The translations under genes and the position numbers were made by a program. DNA of 64,000 nt from Leptolyngbya sp. PCC 6406 (GTDB lineage: Bacteria; Cyanobacteriota; Cyanobacteriia; Phormidesmidales; Phormidesmidaceae), in the NCBI RefSeq assembly GCF_000332095.2, contig NZ_KI913949.1:971198-1035197 (forward strand), given 5' to 3'. The notes under the pieces are model-generated. The model had not been told where the DNA came from, searched no databases, and saw only the letters and a list, made by a program, of their open reading frames with translations. The first letter of the stretch is position 1. Each line of letters starts with the position of its first letter. Shown here one piece after another: positions 8,919 to 26,653 of this stretch.

Positions 8919-9518
8919 TTATAGCGCTACATCAGGGGGTAGAAGCACTTGGTCGATGCCATGGATGACACCATTGCTAGCCAGCACATCTGCTTGGATT
9001 ACGGTGGCTTCGTCGATCATGATTTCCCCCGTAGTGTCATCCACCGTAATCGAGAGGGGGACTCCGGCGGCTGTGGGTGCTTCGCCGGAGGTGACATCTG
9101 CCGAGAGCACCTCGGCGGGCACAACATGGTAGGCCAGAATTTGGGTTAATAGGGCTTGGTTTTCCGGCAGCAGCAGTTCCTCTAGGACACCCTCTGGTAA
9201 TGCCGCAAACGCCTCGTTAGTTGGGGCAAAAACGGTGTAAGGCCCTTCACCAGCTAGGACTTCGTCTAACCCTGCGGCCTCAAGCGCGGTGACTAGTGTG
9301 CTAAAGGATTCGTCGCTGGCGGCGATATCCACAACCGTGGAACCCGTTTCCGCTGCTGTCATTTCTTCCTCAGCGGGAGCTTCCACCGTGGGGGTTTCCT
9401 CTACGGGATCTGCCGTAACATCTCCTGCATCGCCGCAGGCTCCTAGGGCAAACACTGCACCCAAGCTAACGAGGCCAATGGTGAGGGGCTTGGAAAAGTT
9501 ATGAAATGCGTTGGACAT
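8919..9518 (-). CDS. Fasciclin (FAS1) domain lipoprotein
   Basis: The 199-residue protein has a lipoprotein signal with lipobox LGAC (Cys28), then an acidic Thr/Glu/Ala-rich linker to about residue 60. A single FAS1 domain follows: FSTLVTALEAAGLDEVLAGE, YTVFAPTNEAFAALP, LAYHVVPAEVL, and VIHGIDQVLLPP at the end. FAS1 proteins are extracellular adhesion modules. The lipid anchor would place it on the outer face of the plasma membrane or at the outer membrane. It is a single gene with no obvious partner. Confidence 0.93.
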   Translation of the reverse strand: MSNAFHNFSKPLTIGLVSLGAVFALGACGDAGDVTADPVEETPTVEAPAEEEMTAAETGSTVVDIAASDESFSTLVTALEAAGLDEVLAGEGPYTVFAPTNEAFAALPEGVLEELLLPENQALLTQILAYHVVPAEVLSADVTSGEAPTAAGVPLSITVDDTTGEIMIDEATVIQADVLASNGVIHGIDQVLLPPDVAL

Positions 9519-9690
9519 GGTGCAAAGACCTCCAAAGATGAATGCGCTTTTTTAACGCTAGGAAAACGCTAACGATTCTCGCTGGGCTATACCCTCCGTC
9601 ATCGGACAGATGTGTTACAGAATACAAATAGAGCTTTAGGCAGAGATTTGCCCGCTGTCACACTAGGCGCAAGCTGAGCGCACCTCAGGT

Positions 9691-11067
9691 TCACATTTGG
9701 ACGTTTTGTTGGAGTTTCTGGAGGCTGTCGTGGATAGCGACCCAGGCGGCGCGGCAATCTTCTAGAGTCTGGAATCCAGTAATCGCGATGGCCCCGGTGG
9801 GCCGGTCCTTGACCATCGCACGATGTCGGGCCACGATCAGCACCAAGGGCTGGGGAGCGTGAACCACGAGTAGCGTGTGAATATCCGGTGTGGGCAGTTG
9901 GGCAACCAGACGACGATTGAGGTAAAAGGCGACGCGATGCCGATCGAGCAACAGATGCTTGTTTTGGCTCAGGTGCCAGCCGTTGATCAACAGCAGGCCC
10001 ATTGCGATCGCAACCTCCGCCCAGTCATGCCAGCGGGGGGACAGTCCCAAAGTTTGTACCGTCTGCACCAGCAAAACTCCCATAGCCGCGTCGTTGCCAT
10101 AGATCCGTGCCGACCCGTACAGCAGCTCGCCAAACAGCTCCATCACCTCCGTCATCAGCACCACAAACAGTAAAAAGCCCGATTGCTGAAAGAGGTCTCG
10201 ACAAAAACGCCCTACACTGCTCCAGGTCCAGCGATTGCAAAGGTGATAGCCCAAGGTTGTAGGCCGTAAGCGCACCGTGTCAGGCGGGTGGTCGCGGTAG
10301 CGTTGCATGATTTGTGCAAGGGGATGGGTGCAGGCATAGGGTCCCGTCCCCTCACTGGCGGCAATCCGAATTGGTACCCAGAAAAACTGAGCTGCCAACT
10401 GATGAGCTTGGCGCAGGGCCACCGTCAGATCGGTCTCTTCCCCCAGGAGCCAATCGGTTTGATCCCTTAGGGTCAGGGAGACCCGCCAAACCCAACCCAG
10501 ATGGGTCTGAAACGGTCCCCCTCGTGCTTCGTTGTAGGTCACCGTGATAGTAGCGATTTGGGCAGCGGTGAATTTACCTTGAATTAAGCGGTTCTGGTAG
10601 GTCTCTAGACAGTAATAGAGAGGTCGATCACCCCAGTTTGAAGCCCCATCGCCGGGGACTGGAGATAGGGCCTGATGAACCTTGGTAGTCTCTAGGGTGC
10701 CTTGCCCTGGGTCGCTTTTGCCTAGATCGCCTGCCTCTAGGTAGACCCAAGCCGCCTCGGCTCCTTGAAAATAGCGCCAACGGCTCACCCCCGCATCCAG
10801 CCCCCATACAGCCAAAAAGGCAATGAAAATCTGGCTTTCGTAGTCTTGCAGACCATACACCACGACAGAAAAGCCGCAGAATCCGAGAAAAAAGAGTCCT
10901 ACTCGGAGGGATCCATGCAGGGACTGACCGATTAGGTTGGCCCACAGCAACCACAACAGCGTTTTGTAAGCGGCTTCCCAGACTTCCTTGACTTGCACCA
11001 CTGGCCAGAGGACCGTCCGGTATCCCCAGGTGGGCTCTAGGTAATTGAGGCGACGTTTGAGACGCAT
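9691..11067 (-). CDS. Uncharacterised membrane protein
   Basis: I do not recognise this 458-residue protein. It has two to three hydrophobic segments near the N-terminus (LLWLLWANLIGQ, VGLFFLGFCGFSVVVYGL, IFIAFLAVWGLDAG), one near the middle (GFLLFVVLMTEVMELFGELL) and one at WAEVAIAMGLLLINGW. A soluble loop of about 170 residues lies between them. Near the C-terminus it reads RAMVKDRPTGAIAI, which is translated from a 35-bp palindromic repeat (9785-9819) that also occurs elsewhere in the window. The frame is long and in normal codon use, so it is probably a real gene. Function unknown. Confidence 0.75.
   Translation of the reverse strand: MRLKRRLNYLEPTWGYRTVLWPVVQVKEVWEAAYKTLLWLLWANLIGQSLHGSLRVGLFFLGFCGFSVVVYGLQDYESQIFIAFLAVWGLDAGVSRWRYFQGAEAAWVYLEAGDLGKSDPGQGTLETTKVHQALSPVPGDGASNWGDRPLYYCLETYQNRLIQGKFTAAQIATITVTYNEARGGPFQTHLGWVWRVSLTLRDQTDWLLGEETDLTVALRQAHQLAAQFFWVPIRIAASEGTGPYACTHPLAQIMQRYRDHPPDTVRLRPTTLGYHLCNRWTWSSVGRFCRDLFQQSGFLLFVVLMTEVMELFGELLYGSARIYGNDAAMGVLLVQTVQTLGLSPRWHDWAEVAIAMGLLLINGWHLSQNKHLLLDRHRVAFYLNRRLVAQLPTPDIHTLLVVHAPQPLVLIVARHRAMVKDRPTGAIAITGFQTLEDCRAAWVAIHDSLQKLQQNVQM
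9785..9819. repeat. 35-bp palindromic repeat inside a coding region
   Basis: The ends GCGATGG and CCATCGC are complementary, with inner GGCC blocks. The same 35-base layout occurs at 19166-19200 and 61495-61529, with only a few differences. Here it is read on the minus strand as AMVKDRPTGAIA within the membrane protein gene. Confidence 0.8.
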
Positions 11068-11220
11068 GGGTAGGACGGCTACTGGAAAGTAGTATAATCC
11101 GCTGCCTCAGCAGTGTAGAGCTTGAAGCAAGCAGAAAGGGTGAGCAGGGAAACAGGGGGGAAGTGGTATCCTCAAAGGAAATTTTTCCCTCTTCTATCGT
11201 CCCAAGGACAACGCATTGCT

Positions 11221-12129
11221 ATGAAACTTCTTCGCCGTTGGTTGACCTACGCCCTGGCTACCCTGCTGATGGCGATCGCGGTGGTGGCCTGCACGGGTGG
11301 CGGCGGATCCGGTACCACGATTACTGTGGGCTCTAAGGACTTCACCGAGCAGCTTGTTCTGGGGGAGATGTACGCCTTGGTGCTGGAGGAGGCGGGTTTG
11401 ACCGTAAGCCGCAGTCTAAATCTGGGGGGCACTCCGGTGGCCCAGGCCGCCCTAGAGAGTGGTGATATTGATCTCTACCCAGAATATACGGGCACAGGTC
11501 TGTTGACGGTGTTGAAGGAACCCGTCAACACGGATCCGGCGGCGGTGTACGAGACGGTATCAAGCCAGTATCTAGAGCAATTCGATCTGGTGTGGCTCGA
11601 CCCGGCTCCCATGAACAATACCCAGGCCCTAGCGATGACGCGATCGCGGGCCACGGAACTGAATATCACCACTATCTCGGACCTAGTGGCTCAGGCCAGT
11701 GCGTTGACATTGATTGGTCCCCCTGAGTTTGAGGTGCGGGAGGATGGCCTGCTGGGCTTGAAGACCACCTATGGAGATTTTGCCCTGAAGGCTTACAAGG
11801 CTGTGGATGCGGGCCTGCGCTACAAGGGCTTGGTGGATGGGGAAGCGGATGTGGTGGTGGCCTTTGGCACCGATGGGGAAATTTCCGCCTTTGACCTGGT
11901 GGTGCTGGAGGATGACAAGGGCCTGTTTCCCCCCTACCAAGTGGCTCCGGTGGTGCGTCAAGATACCCTAGAGGCCAACCCCGCGATCGCGGATGCCCTC
12001 AATGCCCTAGCGCCTCTCCTCACCGATGAGGTCATGCAGGGGCTGAACTATGCCGTCTCGGGGGAGCAGCAAGAACCTGCCGCCGTGGCCCGCACGTTTC
12101 TACAAGAGCAGGGGCTAGTCGGAGCCTAG
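11221..12129 (+). CDS. Osmoprotectant/quaternary-amine ABC transporter substrate-binding lipoprotein
   Basis: I placed the start at the ATG at 11221 because it opens a clean lipoprotein signal peptide (KLLRRWLTYALATLL… with lipobox VVAC, Cys24). The mature part belongs to the OpuAC/ProX-type II binding proteins: ITVGSKDFTEQLVLGEMYA, LNLGGTPVAQAALESGDIDLYPEYTGTG and VVAFGTDGEISAFDLVVLEDD. These bind glycine betaine, choline or related quaternary amines outside the membrane. The ATPase and permease genes follow on the same strand, making a three-gene transporter operon. Confidence 0.92.
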   Translation: MKLLRRWLTYALATLLMAIAVVACTGGGGSGTTITVGSKDFTEQLVLGEMYALVLEEAGLTVSRSLNLGGTPVAQAALESGDIDLYPEYTGTGLLTVLKEPVNTDPAAVYETVSSQYLEQFDLVWLDPAPMNNTQALAMTRSRATELNITTISDLVAQASALTLIGPPEFEVREDGLLGLKTTYGDFALKAYKAVDAGLRYKGLVDGEADVVVAFGTDGEISAFDLVVLEDDKGLFPPYQVAPVVRQDTLEANPAIADALNALAPLLTDEVMQGLNYAVSGEQQEPAAVARTFLQEQGLVGA

Positions 12130-12195
12130 GATTCTGCGAGGATCCCAGGACGATGTGCCGGGGCTGCACCCCGCCTTAGCGAAGAGCCATCCACC

Positions 12196-13161
12196 GTGGG
12201 CACGATTGAATTTCATCAAGTTTCCCTCCACTTTCCCCAGGCCCCCCGTCCAGCCGTGAAGGCTGTCAGCGTTCAGATCCAGCGGGGGGAACTGGTGGTG
12301 CTGTTGGGGCCATCGGGCTGTGGCAAGACCACCCTGCTGAAAATGGTAAATCGCCTCTACGAACCTTCGGCAGGATGGATCACCCTAGAGGGGCAAGACA
12401 TTTGCCGCCTCCCACCCACCCAACTGCGCCAAAACATCGGCTACGTGATTCAGCAGTCGGGGCTCTTTCCCCACATGACCGTGGCCCAGAATATCGCCGT
12501 GGTGCCCCGGCTCCTGGGGTGGTCTCGTCCCCGCATTCAAAGCCGGGTGGAGGCGTTGTTGGATCTGGTGAAACTGTCACCGGGGGAATTTCGCGATCGC
12601 TATCCGGCCCAACTGTCCGGTGGACAGCAGCAGCGGGTGGGCATTGCCCGTGCCCTGGCTGGCGATCCGGAATACCTCCTCATGGACGAACCCTTCGGGG
12701 CCATCGATGCCATTACCCGCAGCGCCCTCCAGGGGGAAATCCTGCGCCTCCAGCACCAGCTTCGCAAAACCATTCTGTTTGTCTCCCATGATGTCGAAGA
12801 GGCGCTGCGCTTGGCGGATCGCATCCTAGTTTTACGGCAGGGAGAAGTCGTACAGTTTGATACCCCTTTTCGTCTCCTGACCCAGCCAGCAGATCCCTTT
12901 GTCCATGATTTGCTCGGGGCCGATGACCGGGTGCGACAACTCGGGCTGCTACGGATTGCCCCCGCCATGGCTCCCTTACCCAATTCCCCGATTCGCAATG
13001 GTCAACCGACCCTCACCCCTGAGGACAGTCTCCGAGATGCCCTCTCTTTGATTTTGAAAACCGGCTTTCCTGAAATCACGGTGGTTCACAATGGCCGTCC
13101 CGTCGGCCTCTTAACCCTGGATCACATTCGCACCTCGGCCATGGGGGGAACACAGAACTGA
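12196..13161 (+). CDS. Osmoprotectant ABC transporter ATP-binding protein with CBS region
   Basis: A GTG start at 12196 gives a 321-residue ATPase. Walker A is GPSGCGKTT (38-46) and the Q-loop lies in IGYVIQQSGLFPHMTV. The signature is LSGGQQQRVGIARAL, Walker B YLLMDEPFGAID, and the H-loop FVSHDVEEALRLADR. After the nucleotide-binding domain a C-terminal extension resembles a single CBS motif (EDSLRDALSLIL…GRPVGLLTLDHIR). That is typical of OpuA/OpuC/ProV-type ATPases, where CBS modules sense ionic strength or nucleotides. Its stop overlaps the permease start. Confidence 0.93.
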   Translation: MGTIEFHQVSLHFPQAPRPAVKAVSVQIQRGELVVLLGPSGCGKTTLLKMVNRLYEPSAGWITLEGQDICRLPPTQLRQNIGYVIQQSGLFPHMTVAQNIAVVPRLLGWSRPRIQSRVEALLDLVKLSPGEFRDRYPAQLSGGQQQRVGIARALAGDPEYLLMDEPFGAIDAITRSALQGEILRLQHQLRKTILFVSHDVEEALRLADRILVLRQGEVVQFDTPFRLLTQPADPFVHDLLGADDRVRQLGLLRIAPAMAPLPNSPIRNGQPTLTPEDSLRDALSLILKTGFPEITVVHNGRPVGLLTLDHIRTSAMGGTQN

Positions 13162-13781
13162 TGGGCTATCTCCTGGGCAATCCTGAGGTGGTGCTCCCCC
13201 TGGTTTGGCAACACCTGTCTATGACCCTCACCACCCTAGGGATAGCGGTGGTGGTGTCGGTGCCCGTAACTCTGCTAGTGACGACGGTGCGGTGGCTCCA
13301 GGTGCCGATTTTGGGCTTGTTGGGGGTGCTGTACACGATTCCCAGTTTGGCGCTGATCATTTTCCTGGTGCCGTTGTTTGGACTGAATGCAACATCGGTG
13401 GTGGTGGCGATGGTGCTCTACACCCAGGTGATTTTGGTCCGTAACTTAACGGTGGGGCTAGAGGGCATTGACCCGGCGGTACTGGAGGCATCTCGGGGTA
13501 TGGGGATGGACGCTTGGCAGCGGTGGTGGTGGGTGCAGGTGCCCTTGGTATTGCCGGTGTTTCTGGCGGGGCTACGGATGGCGGCGGTGGTGTCGATTGC
13601 GATCGCAACTATTGGAGCCAAGTTCAATGCCGGAGGGTTGGGACGTCTCCTCTTTGACGGCATTCAAACCAATCGCCTCGACAAAATCTGGGCCGGTGCG
13701 ATCGCAGTGGCTATCCTAGCCCTAGGAGTCAACACCCTGTTGCTGTGGCTAGAGCATCACAGCAGACGCGATAAATTGTGA
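13161..13781 (+). CDS. Osmoprotectant ABC transporter permease
   Basis: This 206-residue, very hydrophobic protein has about six spans. The BPD-type loop reads EGIDPAVLEASRGMGMDAWQ followed by VQVPLVLPVFLAGLRMA. The size matches OpuCB/YehW-type permeases. Its ATG overlaps the last base of the ATPase stop codon, so the two are translationally coupled. Only one permease gene is present, so the transporter is probably a homodimeric channel. Confidence 0.92.
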   Translation: MGYLLGNPEVVLPLVWQHLSMTLTTLGIAVVVSVPVTLLVTTVRWLQVPILGLLGVLYTIPSLALIIFLVPLFGLNATSVVVAMVLYTQVILVRNLTVGLEGIDPAVLEASRGMGMDAWQRWWWVQVPLVLPVFLAGLRMAAVVSIAIATIGAKFNAGGLGRLLFDGIQTNRLDKIWAGAIAVAILALGVNTLLLWLEHHSRRDKL

Positions 13782-13805
13782 TGGGATGGGATGGAGCCGC
13801 TGACC

Positions 13806-14252
13806 ATGCAAATTTGGGTTGATGCCGACGCTTGCCCCCAGGTAATTAAGGAAATTCTGTTTCGAGCAGCTCGGCGAGTTGCCATCAAGACCGTTCTCGT
13901 GGCCAATCAAGAACTAAAAATTCCGGCCTCCGACTACATTGAGGCCATTCAAGTCAGGGCAGGCTTAGACGTGGCCGACAATTACATCGTCCAGCACCTC
14001 CAGCCCCAGGATTTGGTCATCACCGCCGATATTCCCTTAGCGGCAGCCGTAGTTGCAGCCGGAGGCTATGCCTTAAACCCTCGGGGCGAGTTTTACACCA
14101 CCGGTAATATTCGAGAGCGGCTGGCCCTGCGCAATTTTATGGACCAGCTACGCAGCAGTGGTGTCGAGACGGGTGGCCCCCCCGCCTTTAGTCAACGAGA
14201 TCGCGAAGCTTTCGCCAACCAACTCGATCGATTCCTGGCCAAACAAGCTTAG
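13806..14252 (+). CDS. YaiI/YqxD (DUF188) family protein
   Basis: The protein starts [18 protein letters not shown], the hallmark of the YaiI/YqxD family. This PIN-like fold has conserved Asp residues (DADACP), with further motifs [21 protein letters not shown] and NPRGEFYT. I preferred the ATG at 13806 to the one at 13791 because family members start just before the WVDADACP motif. Its biochemical role is not established. It follows the transporter operon by about 25 bases and may be co-transcribed. Confidence 0.9.
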
Positions 14253-22060: not shown

Positions 22061-22531
22061 ATGGTAAAAGCAACCCTCTATGGTCGCGACTTTTTGCGGT
22101 GGACAGATCATCAAATTGCCTGTCTTCAGAAAGGGCAATGGGAAAACGTAGATGGAGATAATTTGGTTGAGGAACTGGGGGATTTGGGACGCAGCGAGCA
22201 GAAGGAGCTAGGCAGCTCCTTAATGGTGTTGATGATGCACCTACTCAAATGGCAATATCAGCCCGATCGTAGAACAGCCAGTTGGGAGGTTACGCTGTCG
22301 AACTGTCGCGATGGCATTCAAGACTATTTGGAAGATAGCCCCAGCCTGCAAGGCTTTCTAAACGATGCAGAATGGGTGGCAAAATATTATCGTCGCGCCC
22401 GCAGAGATGCGGCAAAAGAAACCCAGATGTCAATTGATACCTTTCCTAAGGAATGCCCCTATACTCTAGAAGATATGTTAGAAATGCAAACTGGGTTGCG
22501 CGTTAGTACAACCGACAAAACCATCGGTTAA
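22061..22531 (+). CDS. DUF29 family protein
   Basis: The ATG at 22061 opens KATLYGRDFLRWTDHQIACL, the typical DUF29 start. It continues with DNLVEELGDLGRSEQKELGS, LMMHLLKWQYQPDRRTASW and FPKECPYTLEDML. DUF29 proteins (about 150 residues) are very common, multicopy and mobile in cyanobacteria; their function is unknown. The longer frame from 22037 uses a GTG and adds eight residues that are not family-like. It sits beside the caspase/NACHT block, consistent with accessory DNA. Confidence 0.9.
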   Translation: MVKATLYGRDFLRWTDHQIACLQKGQWENVDGDNLVEELGDLGRSEQKELGSSLMVLMMHLLKWQYQPDRRTASWEVTLSNCRDGIQDYLEDSPSLQGFLNDAEWVAKYYRRARRDAAKETQMSIDTFPKECPYTLEDMLEMQTGLRVSTTDKTIG

Positions 22532-22662
22532 ATTTGTATTATGGTGGGAATCGAAGGCTTGTGCGTGTTGGGTTTCCTTCGTCAACCCAACCTACGAGGG
22601 CGAGCGCACTGCTAGTCAATTTGCATTGATTACCAAACCTGGGAGGATCATGCAAATTATTT

Positions 22663-23664
22663 TCAACCCCGTTGAATTACATTGCCGTTTCCAGTCACAT
22701 TATTGTTACCAGTAATAATTGTGCTGCTGATAGTGCTGTCTCCTATTGCGACACTCCTTTTACCTAATGTGCTGACTTGAACCTGATGAGAAGCATCTGC
22801 CTGTTGTTCCATAGCTTTCCATCCACCGACAGGCAGACCTTTGCCTCCTTGAAGTAGCGCGATACTAAATTTTTCTGTCGCCGACATTTCAAATCTAGGA
22901 GTTTGCTGTTTCCCTATAGTTGCTGCGCTTTCTGGAACGGCCTTTCCTAAATGGTTTGCCAGGTCAAACACGGTTACCTCCGTCGCTCCCGGTTGGCTAG
23001 CGGCTCCCTGCAAAGCTTCAATCAGGTGATGGGTATAGAGACTTAACGTATTGTCGGGTCGAATCCAAGATTTCTGATCTCCTCGACAAGACGTAAACAC
23101 GACTCGTCCTTCGCCCTGCGCCAGGTTATCAATCAGCCCTTTGGGATCGGCTGTAGGCACAATGCCTTTGGGTAAACGAGGTTCCGACACATTTTCTTTG
23201 GGTGAAGCCATACCGGCCGCATGGCAGCAGTCGAGGATCACGAGCAGTCGCTTGGCCGGAATTTGATGCAGGGCTTGATTGAAGGTCTCGGCGGATAGGG
23301 CCGTGTTGCGCCAGTCGTAGGAATCAAAATCGTGCGGAATGAGGTAGTAGTTACCACTGGTTGTGTCCAGCCAGCCATGACCGGAGTAATAGATAATTAC
23401 TGTGGCTTCTGAATCAGCCGTCGCTTGAGCCTTCAACCACTCTAAGCCGTCCAGGATTGCTTGGTGAGTAGCGTCCTCATCGTGAAGCAGCCTCAAATGC
23501 TGGTCATTGTCAGGGTAAGCACAGAGTTCTGGATCAACCAAGATTTGTTTCAATGCCTGCATGTCTTTCACGGTTACAGGCAAAGACGACTGCGGCTCAA
23601 CACAGTGCCCTACACCGACTAAAAGTGCATATCCATGGGCAAAGGACTCTGTCATAACCAACAT
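22663..23664 (-). CDS. Orthocaspase (caspase-like peptidase C14) with C-terminal N/G-rich motif
   Basis: The p20-like caspase domain spans about residues 8-270: GYALLVGVGHCVEPQSSLPV, then VIIYYSGHGWLD with catalytic His96, and LLVILDCCHAAGM with catalytic Cys147 in the DCCHAAG box. Both catalytic residues are present, so the enzyme should be active, probably Arg/Lys-specific like other bacterial metacaspases. After the domain, residues about 305-333 form a distinct tail with TIITGNNNVTGNGNVI. It closely resembles the N-terminal motif of the NACHT protein encoded 341 bases upstream on the same strand. Translation may begin at Met1 or Met4. I infer it is the effector of a cell-death or defence pair. 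Confidence 0.93.
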   Translation of the reverse strand: MLVMTESFAHGYALLVGVGHCVEPQSSLPVTVKDMQALKQILVDPELCAYPDNDQHLRLLHDEDATHQAILDGLEWLKAQATADSEATVIIYYSGHGWLDTTSGNYYLIPHDFDSYDWRNTALSAETFNQALHQIPAKRLLVILDCCHAAGMASPKENVSEPRLPKGIVPTADPKGLIDNLAQGEGRVVFTSCRGDQKSWIRPDNTLSLYTHHLIEALQGAASQPGATEVTVFDLANHLGKAVPESAATIGKQQTPRFEMSATEKFSIALLQGGKGLPVGGWKAMEQQADASHQVQVSTLGKRSVAIGDSTISSTIITGNNNVTGNGNVIQRG

Positions 23665-24005
23665 TATTTATTGTTGACAAGATTCACGACCCTACCGGAT
23701 CTATCATGCTAATTATATCTCAAATAGGCTAAAGTCCTTGGTCAACAAGGCTTACGTACACCAGAATCGAAAGCAGCCTTTTACAGGCTGTATAATTGAT
23801 GAAAGTTTTTCTCCGTATAAATCTTGGCTGATTCAGTGAGAATGTTCAGCATACTAAATCTTGTAAAGCTGAATTTACTTAGCCCAAGATTTCCGCTCTC
23901 AAGAAGTTCTTCTTAAAGTAGAATGATCATCTAAATTTTCATATTTTGTGGAACGATAGGTAGCCGCCGAAAGTGCTATCAGAGGCACGTTTAGCAGTTT
24001 GCATC
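23665..24005. other. AT-rich spacer between NACHT and caspase genes
   Basis: There is no open frame of note. The DNA is AT-rich compared with flanking core genes. A short hairpin (CAGCCT, loop, AGGCTG near 23772-23788) lies in the middle. The spacer is long enough for the caspase gene to have its own promoter, so the two genes may not be one transcript. Confidence 0.5.
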
Positions 24006-26510
24006 CTAGCTTAAAACTTCCTCTTCTGAAATTAAGTTGTCAGTATTGGGAAGCAAAATTTTGCTCATAAGATCTTCTGCCAAAAAGGCTTCTGTGACTG
24101 GTAGATCATTTATACAATCTGCCAGCAATCGATTTGCTGCATAATACTTATTCATGAGTTCTTTGGATTCTTCTGCTAATTCCCAACCGTGACATATATT
24201 ACGTTCTTTGCGCAAATTTTCAAGCAGTTGCTCGGCCAATGTATTTCCTTCATTATCCCACCATGCCCTCAATGTTTCTGAAGAAGTATCTTCCACACTA
24301 AGAAAACTATGCCAGAATACAAGGATCCGTTCAAATAAAGTTATTGAGACTACCTTTATACAGATTAATATCGAGCATTCTTCGGCACATTTAGCAAGTG
24401 CTTCTGTCAAGGCAGAGTATGAATGCTCAAATACGAAAAAAGGAGCGCAAAATTTTGTGAGATATGCAAAAAAACAATTCATAGAATGGTCAAGGATTAT
24501 GACTGATTCTATGAACTGGTTCTTTCTCTTGAAAGACATATAGAGGCTCAGCTGAGAAATGATCTTCACGTCCCCGATAAGACTATTGTCACAGTTGTAT
24601 ATGCAGATAAGATCTAGGCAAAATCCTCGTAGGAGAGCCTGCTGATAAATAATTGGTATATATCTTGACTTGTCTGGTACTGAGGGAGTCAGTTCAATAA
24701 TAATCTGCTGATTTTCTTGCGTCGGATCCGCGAATTCTGAATTTAGAAGGAGTGCATTTTGAACCTGCAACTGTACTTGCTCACATGAAAAAATCTCTAG
24801 GCCGAGGGAGGTAGCCTTTTCGCTAACCCAATTGAGGATTTGTTGAATGAGCTGATTGCCAGCAATCAACTCATTTGCAAGTCTATGCACCTCTAACAAT
24901 AGCTCGGCTCTATTCTGAAGCATTTCTGATGACAACAGAAAGATTTCGCGCCATCTGTAGTCCGTAATATGCCTCATTAGAGGTTGGAGGTCTGTTCCAT
25001 CGCAAAACCATCTCGCTACCAAGTATTCCTGAAATGTCAGATGTGAAAACGACCAAATTTCATGGGCGCGCGCAACTAAAATTCCATGCTGCTCTGCAAT
25101 ACTCTCTAGTACTGCTCTACTTTCCTCCTCTGAAATTTGAAGATGCTCCGAAATGTAACTACAGATTTCCGCTTCCTCAAACAGTACAAAATTTTCTGTC
25201 TGATCGAACTTACGAACCGCCAAATAGCTCAGTAGTTGCTTGCGTGAATCGAGAGATAATTGCCGATAGATCTCACTTTTGATCTCTCGACTTATTCCTC
25301 GTTTTTCGTCCCACTGTTTTAGTAGTAAATCCAATCCTTCCCGGTATAAATCAGACCTTCTCTCTGGCAAGCATTCCAAGTCTTCAAAAATCCAACACGC
25401 CAAACTTAGTAGGACTGGGGTTACGGCTAGTTCAGAAGTTTGTTGATGTTCCCTCAGCTTCTCCATGAAGTGTTCTTTTAGCGCTTTACCTTGTTCTGGT
25501 GTTTCTGCTAATGCCGTAAACCAATTCAATGCAAAGCTTTCTACCTGTTCTGGCTTAAATTCCGCTACCTCTATGGGACTGAACTGCTCCGGAATATACT
25601 CCGTTGTTTGAGTACGACAAGTCAGCACAAAGCGGTTTTTGTCGTATCGTCTTGCAAGCCTTCGCAATTCATCCTGTAATTTTTGCTGCACAGCACTGGA
25701 CACCTCATCCAGACCGTCCAACAAAACCAAGACTTTCCCTTGACTTAGGAGTTGTTTGGTTTGCTCCTCTTTGTCTAATTCAAATTCCTCGTGGATATGC
25801 TGAAATATGCTGAAATCAGTTTTATCAAGATCCCGTAGCTCAAGCAGATAGGGGATGTAGTCGTTCAGAAAAATACCTTTGGCACAGCCTACTGCTAAGT
25901 GCCTTAGAAATGTGCTTTTCCCTGAACCGGGCTTCCCTAGCACCATTAATCGAGGATAGTCCTCACTCTCGGCAACTTTTAATCCCTGTAACCGCTCCCC
26001 TCTCTTTGCAAGCCCTAGTCGGTCAAACTGTTCTCGGACATTCTGACCGTTGAGTAACCCTGGAATGTTGGTTCGATAGTCCTGCACTTCCAGAACATAA
26101 ACATCTACATAAAGCTGATCAACATCAACTTGGCGTCTATTCAGGAGTTGAATTTTTCCGAAATTTTTGAGAACTTTCTCAGATGCCCGCGATCGCACTT
26201 TCTGGATCAGTGTATCAAGTGAAATCTGTGGTCGCTGATTTAGAATACTTTGGATAAATTCAGCTTTTGCTCCATTAATAATGATGTTGCTATCACCATT
26301 AATAATGATATTTTTATCGCCCGCCAAGTTGTGGCTACCAGTGATAATCTGTGAGTCTTGAACGTCACCATCAACTTTGATAACACCATTGCCGTGAGCC
26401 AGAACTACTTGACCAGTTTGAATAGCTGTCGATATCGTATGAATGTCAGAGTCGTCAGCGTTTCCCGACAACACTCTTTGGATGGCTGCTTGAAGAGATT
26501 CTGACATCAA
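24006..26510 (-). CDS. NACHT-domain NTPase with N-terminal N/G-rich motif
   Basis: The protein has 834 residues. Residues about 1-25 are helical. Residues about 33-80 are a beta-type repeat region (GQVVLAHGNGVIKVDGDV, SQIITGSHNLAGDKNIII, NGDSNIIING). The NACHT module follows: Walker A GKPGSGKST (192-200), Walker B LVLLDGLDE (261-269), sensor-like RFVLTCRT (293-300) and the typical FSHLTFQEYLVARW in the helical part. The C-terminal third has no repeat that I recognise and is presumably the sensing part. NACHT/STAND ATPases switch from monomer to oligomer on ligand binding. The gene is more AT-rich than its neighbours, suggesting transfer. The N-terminal motif matches the caspase tail. Confidence 0.93.
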   Translation of the reverse strand: MMSESLQAAIQRVLSGNADDSDIHTISTAIQTGQVVLAHGNGVIKVDGDVQDSQIITGSHNLAGDKNIIINGDSNIIINGAKAEFIQSILNQRPQISLDTLIQKVRSRASEKVLKNFGKIQLLNRRQVDVDQLYVDVYVLEVQDYRTNIPGLLNGQNVREQFDRLGLAKRGERLQGLKVAESEDYPRLMVLGKPGSGKSTFLRHLAVGCAKGIFLNDYIPYLLELRDLDKTDFSIFQHIHEEFELDKEEQTKQLLSQGKVLVLLDGLDEVSSAVQQKLQDELRRLARRYDKNRFVLTCRTQTTEYIPEQFSPIEVAEFKPEQVESFALNWFTALAETPEQGKALKEHFMEKLREHQQTSELAVTPVLLSLACWIFEDLECLPERRSDLYREGLDLLLKQWDEKRGISREIKSEIYRQLSLDSRKQLLSYLAVRKFDQTENFVLFEEAEICSYISEHLQISEEESRAVLESIAEQHGILVARAHEIWSFSHLTFQEYLVARWFCDGTDLQPLMRHITDYRWREIFLLSSEMLQNRAELLLEVHRLANELIAGNQLIQQILNWVSEKATSLGLEIFSCEQVQLQVQNALLLNSEFADPTQENQQIIIELTPSVPDKSRYIPIIYQQALLRGFCLDLICIYNCDNSLIGDVKIISQLSLYMSFKRKNQFIESVIILDHSMNCFFAYLTKFCAPFFVFEHSYSALTEALAKCAEECSILICIKVVSITLFERILVFWHSFLSVEDTSSETLRAWWDNEGNTLAEQLLENLRKERNICHGWELAEESKELMNKYYAANRLLADCINDLPVTEAFLAEDLMSKILLPNTDNLISEEEVLS

Positions 26511-26653
26511 TTACAACTTGAGCTCAGGTATAAGTAATTAGTTGCTGTTGCATCTCGTTAAGGCTACTTCATACCACTTGTTGCAGTAGACAGTGTGAAA
26601 TAAATGTTGCCTTGTCTCATTAGTTTAGTTCAGCGCGAGACAGCGGCTAGAGT

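Follow-up and report, generated by a model that had tools for sequence, protein, structure and literature searches.

A caspase-like protease and a NACHT ATPase share an EAD10-type beta motif in a putative immune-type module of Leptolyngbya sp. PCC 6406

Introduction

How might a bacterial sensor ATPase find its own protease? The question is raised by two adjacent genes of the cyanobacterium Leptolyngbya sp. PCC 6406, which encode a caspase-like (C14) protease and a NACHT ATPase of the STAND type and lie in a stretch of 64,000 nucleotides (contig NZ_KI913949.1, positions 971,198 to 1,035,197) that we call the window. A first-pass annotation had noticed an Asn/Gly-rich motif common to the caspase tail and the NACHT N-terminus, and had proposed that the NACHT protein activates the caspase through it. 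Two literatures bear on such an arrangement. Coupling through effector-associated domains (EADs) is already known (PMC7159879, PMC8195603), and the former paper (Kaur 2020) presents EAD10 as an alpha+beta domain of mixed type, one copy on the core pairing with another on the effector. BASS pairs of filamentous bacteria, cyanobacteria included, carry a short motif shared by the N-terminus of an NLR and the C-terminus of the neighbouring effector, and CHAT and TIR effectors have been reported among them (PMC7889193). An antiphage function is proven for other bacterial NACHTs (PMC12169576).

Results

The caspase tail and the NACHT N-terminus carry the same motif

The two motifs align without gaps, as S314-x-I-I-T-G319-x-x-N322-x-x-G325-x-x-N328-x-I330-x-x-G333 in the caspase and S53-x-I-I-T-G58-x-x-N61-x-x-G64-x-x-N67-x-I69-x-x-G72 in the NACHT protein. 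Within the 5.8 Mb genome the pattern [IV][IV]TGxxNxxGxxN[IV][IV] matches only these two genes, and 385 other cyanobacterial genomes yield one further match, again in a caspase tail, whose neighbouring gene encodes an N-terminal motif; since the pattern was written from the pair itself, only the rarity of its exact form is informative. Profiles built without the window proteins gave an independent view. One profile, built from 44 sensor modules of other genomes, ranked the NACHT protein first and the caspase tail second among the 242 open reading frames of the window (independent E-value 4.7e-4, the next being 0.11). Conversely, a profile for which other genomes supplied seven caspase tails placed the caspase first and NACHT residues 31-76 second (5.3e-6, the next being 0.24). 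The first-pass annotation had named two grounds for giving up the pairing, a lack of profile similarity and a motif spread as a general cyanobacterial linker. Profile similarity proved significant: sensor modules compared with caspase tails gave a probability of 94.6% and E=7e-8, and none of 5000 composition-preserving shuffles equalled the real score in either direction. Nor does the motif look like a general linker, being uncommon. A census by profile and pattern searches found it in 20 of the 194 genomes of the class at E<=0.01, and in 10 of these at least two hits fell in different genes within 10 kb. A profile search of the pair's own genome returned three places, namely the pair and one site beside a further STAND sensor, whose N-terminus has a related motif. 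The shared motif reported by the first-pass annotation is thus real, and its profile similarity and rarity strongly support a pairing of sensor and effector through matching motifs; the positions, the minus strand of both genes and the 341 bases between them were likewise borne out in the sequence.

The common unit is the beta half of EAD10

By profile comparison, the NACHT N-terminus belongs to the EAD10 family (PF19954). An iterated EAD10-type profile matches NACHT residues 3-95 at 1e-18, and modules 31-50% identical to that of the window NACHT pass the Pfam cut-off. The earlier suggestion that the motif class may be new therefore does not hold for the sensor side, whose module is a known effector-associated domain.

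On the effector side, Pfam EAD10 matches caspase tails of other genomes only over positions ~36-76 of its 77. Four of these caspases score above the cut-off (41.3, 40.9, 27.5 and 26.0 bits), others under it. EAD-coupled systems carry a second EAD on the adjacent effector; the tail of the window caspase has the beta half only, and stays under the Pfam cut-off. Because caspase tails match only this half, the beta motif, not the helices, would be the common unit. A putative membrane protein also has the beta half alone, as do small CHAT proteases encoded next to EAD10 proteins in two genomes. Some nSTAND1 sensors, one of them from another site in this genome, have a related motif without the helices at their start. 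Since caspases, small CHAT proteases and some nSTAND1 sensors manage with the beta half, the complete EAD10 fold seems unneeded on either side.

The sensor module behaves in turn as a separable piece. Other NACHT proteins, one of them encoded in this genome, share its core (38-41% identity from roughly residue 95 onward) but differ at the N-terminus, where an unrelated sequence reads as helix-turn-helix, and the close NACHT homologues examined in relatives as possible motif carriers have a different N-terminus as well. The EAD10-type module was therefore gained or swapped in, and on these comparisons it is a swappable cassette. Within the NACHT motif, an imperfect 24-base tandem repeat (window positions 26280-26330) adds a second NIIINGD unit, which was not seen among the homologues examined.

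Motif types of caspase and sensor change together

In relatives the beta motif takes two forms, type A (GDRSVAIGG...S.IVTGDGN) and type B (GKYNVNIG...IHIGD.IY). When typed with profiles from which their own locus had been removed, caspase tails were clearly A, B, or A then B; the window caspase tail scored 17.6 bits as type A and -0.2 as type B. Wherever a neighbour could be read, in 14 loci of 14 (7 A-bearing and 7 B-only), tail type agreed with the motif type of the neighbouring sensor (Fisher p=6e-4, or 2e-3 once near-copies are collapsed), and permuting partners between loci on raw alignment scores also gave p=6e-4. The caspase tree shows four changes of tail type, and the sensor type changes with every one of them. 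The most telling case is a pair of caspases (L125 and L106) that are 95.1% identical over their first 265 residues, and identical at 92.6% of aligned residues up to the tail. The tail is of type A in one and of type B in the other, and each has a neighbour of its own type. The motif has been swapped in modular fashion on both sides, and a change of the effector's address appears to come with a change of partner, as in two Pseudanabaena-type genomes. Caspases of the same family that lack a motif tail, re-scored with the same kind of profiles, had an EAD10-type gene nearby in 0 of 5 cases, against 14 of 15 for those with a tail (p=4e-4). Caspases from Accumulibacter, Aminicenantes and others showed no motif of this kind and were left out of the type counts. 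That tags change together in relatives suggests that the tag would be the sensor's means of recruiting its protease.

Effectors with both types exist too. In Lyngbya HA4199 one A+B caspase is surrounded by eight or more EAD10-type proteins, with both types represented, and a 1050-aa fusion of Nostoc flagelliforme (L097:9989-13141) joins a caspase, a type-A motif, a type-B motif, EAD10 and GUN4. In a separate observation, a close relative of the type-B caspases (L043:9308-10282) has a diverged tail (SGDRNDVIFSQSGTINI) and no EAD10-type neighbour; this tail is possibly a third motif type.

Domains and catalytic residues of the two partners

Coordinates of the pair and of its domains are collected in Table 1. 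From homologues, the likely true starts are the ATG codons at 23655 for the caspase and 26507 for the NACHT protein, each a few bases inside the listed reading frame. Judged by sequence and model, the effector is a C14 caspase with an intact His/Cys dyad: H96 and C147 are invariant across 16-17 caspase homologues, the AlphaFold2 core is confident, and the top Foldseek matches are MALT1, metacaspases and caspases. The closest NCBIfam caspase model, that of EACC1-associated caspases (NF047832), matches residues 13-243 with 109 bits; membership was rejected at the curated cut-off of 140. The chain is unstructured from residue 276 in AlphaFold2, with a tail confidence score (pLDDT) <50 on a shallow alignment. 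The NACHT sequence contains a Walker A (GKPGSGKST) and a Walker B motif (VLVLLDGLDE), and in the model of its N-terminal module, also from a shallow alignment, helices 4-14, 20-31 and 81-91 flank an unstructured motif.

Table 1. Features of the caspase/NACHT locus; coordinates are window positions.
Feature	Position	Strand	Evidence
Low-GC island with the caspase/NACHT pair, downstream of zwf-opcA	22501..26600	.	GC content; relatives' loci
Caspase-like (C14) protease, 333 aa	22663..23664	-	Peptidase_C14 match, AlphaFold2 core, Foldseek
Caspase domain, residues 11-266	22867..23634	-	Peptidase_C14 E=8e-22; catalytic His96, Cys147
C-terminal type-A beta motif of the caspase, residues 299-333 (TLGKRSVAIGDSTISSTIITGNNNVTGNGNVIQRG)	22666..22770	-	Sensor profile, shuffles
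NACHT STAND ATPase, putative sensor, 834 aa	24006..26510	-	NACHT E=4e-20, NCH2 E=6.5e-16
NACHT ATPase domain, residues 188-332	25515..25949	-	E=4e-20
NCH2, NACHT C-terminal helical domain 2, residues 740-820	24051..24293	-	E=6.5e-16
EAD10-type module at the N-terminus, residues 3-95 (type-A beta motif between the second and third of three helices)	26226..26504	-	Profiles, AlphaFold2
NACHT type-A beta motif, residues 37-80, duplicated NIIINGD unit	26271..26402	-	Caspase-tail profile, shuffles

The pair lies in a low-GC island

The two genes, NACHT upstream and caspase downstream, are placed between a DUF29 gene and opcA-zwf. Their 4 kb form the 4-kb stretch of lowest guanine-plus-cytosine (GC) content in the window (43%, against a mean of 55.4% with a standard deviation of 3.4). 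zwf-opcA is kept in seven relatives, and no homologue of the pair was found past opcA in the 0.4-8.8 kb readable downstream of it in these genomes. Given the low GC content and this absence beside zwf-opcA, the pair looks like a horizontally acquired island. The neighbours checked (tatC, a RodZ-type gene, DUF29, opcA, zwf, FBPase and others) include no MoxR, vWA or VMAP gene, and assignment to the VMAP/iSTAND ternary system, the original home of the EADs, was rejected as this core is missing among them. No phage gene and no other defence gene was recognised beside the pair.

Other carriers of the motif

Small CHAT proteases of 236-244 aa with an N-terminal type-B motif stand beside EAD10 proteins (L112:9006-9740; L117:7414-8124 and 9516-10235). 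A 273-aa protein (L121:9033-9854) has a type-B motif at its C-terminus and hydrophobic stretches that possibly span the membrane; within ~9 kb of it no EAD10 partner was found. Three helical proteins (L160:7758-8279, L161:8027-8689 and L164:7574-8056) carry a type-A motif at or near their end and are reminiscent of Bell proteins; the first adjoins a TIR-NB-ARC-TPR protein with a weak related motif, and the last is near a 709-aa protein with an N-terminal motif. A second motif pair is present in the Leptolyngbya genome itself (L129, G000:C1:3924000-3943000, positions 9370-14014), where a gene for a small helical protein with a related motif and an in-frame stop is followed by one for a 1248-aa nSTAND1-WD40 protein with N-terminal GTVNSSTLISGDGNTVYVIHQG.

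Discussion

We propose, with a probability of roughly 0.7, that the two genes form a horizontally acquired immune-type module in which the NACHT protein recruits the caspase by motif-motif assembly. The NACHT protein would be sensor and switch, and the caspase its effector. Upon a trigger, the ATPase would oligomerise, as STAND proteins in general do, and so gather its N-terminal EAD10-type modules; the exposed beta motifs could then nucleate a homotypic beta assembly that captures the same motif on the otherwise disordered caspase tail. Caspases clustered in this way might be activated by proximity, and their proteolysis would lead to cell dormancy or death.

Several points weigh against this proposal. 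The window NACHT itself scores 13.9-18.7 bits on Pfam EAD10, below the cut-off of 24.1. Only three tail-type contrasts on well-supported branches are fully independent; all are concordant, and they are too few for significance alone (sign test p=0.25). The set is small and drawn from cyanobacterial genomes, the A and B labels of sensors were assigned by reading, and L125 has a type-B protein nearby as well. For the motif by itself AlphaFold2 yields no confident fold, a result compatible with a templated motif and also with a plain linker that is disordered or with an alignment of too little depth. Finally, physical interaction, amyloid-like assembly, protease activation and a role in defence are steps that we infer from sequence. 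Of the model sketched in the first-pass annotation, the motif pairing stands on profiles and rarity, while its templating, amyloid and cell-death steps keep their conditional form.

What kind of assembly the motif would form is a further question. In a strict amyloid-signalling pair, the beta motif would be a self-propagating cross-beta fibre and the NACHT motif would template the caspase tail; by analogy, amyloid-like assembly of the motif is plausible, and we put this strict version close to, though under, an even chance. The layout equals that of BASS pairs, in which the NLR bears the motif at its N-terminus and the adjacent effector bears it at its C-terminus (PMC7889193), and the type-A motif ends small helical-bundle proteins beside sensors (L160, L164), recalling the Bell proteins that defined BASS. 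The motif regions are predicted to be unstructured alone. The type-B motif contains G-phi-[H/Q]-phi-G-D (H in 10, Q in 7 and L in 1), and a BASS3 amyloid peptide scored on the type-B profile beats 99.5% of its own shuffles, a match that is suggestive only and rests on about eight residues; sigma and archaeal BASS3-like peptides scored like their own shuffles on the same type. Against this version, the window core is IITG and lacks the RHIM glutamine. The RHIM-like core evoked by the first-pass annotation was accordingly rejected: the window reads S-x-I-I-T-G, has no G-[IV]-Q-[IV]-G (G-phi-Q-phi-G) core, and the close form occurs only in the sister type-B motif.

An ordinary folded adaptor, in which two copies would form a small finite beta sandwich or solenoid without amyloid, as in classical EAD-EAD pairing, is a serious candidate that we nevertheless rate below even odds. 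It agrees with the description of EAD10 in Kaur 2020 (PMC7159879) and with the helices that AlphaFold2 places around the motif, but the motif itself is not modelled with confidence, and the carriers of the beta half lack those helices. As to function, a role of the pair in developmental or stress-induced cell death or proteolysis, rather than defence, seems unlikely. Programmed cell death is a setting in which caspase homologues of cyanobacteria are discussed (PMC7475262), and the recognised neighbours include no phage or defence gene; yet the low-GC island, its absence beside zwf-opcA in relatives, the patchy distribution and the antiphage activity of other bacterial NACHTs (PMC12169576) speak against it. 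A general low-complexity linker of cyanobacterial proteins, whose richness in G, N, S and T would make the likeness compositional, is very improbable and was rejected, contradicted as it is by the shuffles, the rarity of the motif, its clustering in adjacent gene pairs and the matching of types.

The proposed module has relatives among known systems, and shared tags as such (EADs, BASS motifs) are no new principle. Like the EAD10-coupled conflict systems of Kaur et al. (2020, 2021), it has an EAD10-type N-terminus and a related segment on the next-door effector, copies within a locus being similar; unlike them, its sensor is a NACHT protein with no MoxR, vWA or VMAP gene recognised nearby, and its caspase has the beta half only, a hint that the beta motif is the functional piece. 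It shares a motif between partners as BASS pairs do (Dyrka et al. 2020; PMC7889193), in a comparison made by layout and one BASS3 peptide, but its effector is a C14 caspase and not Bell. HET-S/NWD2 and RHIM systems resemble it in layout and in the proposed templating logic; here the effector is a protease and not a pore former, and the motif is without a RHIM core. The EACC1-associated caspases provide the closest NCBIfam model, although the window caspase falls below its cut-off and no EACC1-type gene was recognised beside it. Antiphage bNACHT proteins have the NACHT ATPase and the C-terminal helical domain, whereas the effector here is a separate, apparently motif-recruited caspase. In the literature searched, which did not include the JMB 2020 BASS paper, we found neither a C14 caspase in such a pair nor EAD10 reduced to its beta motif on effectors, nor two matching types, tandem tails or natural tail swaps. 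The BASS motif families of that paper may already include type A or B.

In the available parts of PMC7159879 and PMC8195603, the amyloid idea is not discussed for EAD10. The EAD and the bacterial amyloid-motif literatures describe sensor-effector coupling in different terms, and in the literature searched, as far as the sources were available, we did not find them equated. Because effectors keep only the motif, EAD10 is suggested to be a meeting point of the two. We tentatively consider that EAD10 might be at heart an amyloid-type signalling motif, with types A and B as an interchangeable address code by which an effector bearing one or both addresses could serve many sensors. The natural tail swaps are ready-made constructs for asking whether a short motif alone decides which sensor is paired with which protease, and the pair bears on the existence of a caspase-recruiting, inflammasome-like platform in cyanobacteria.

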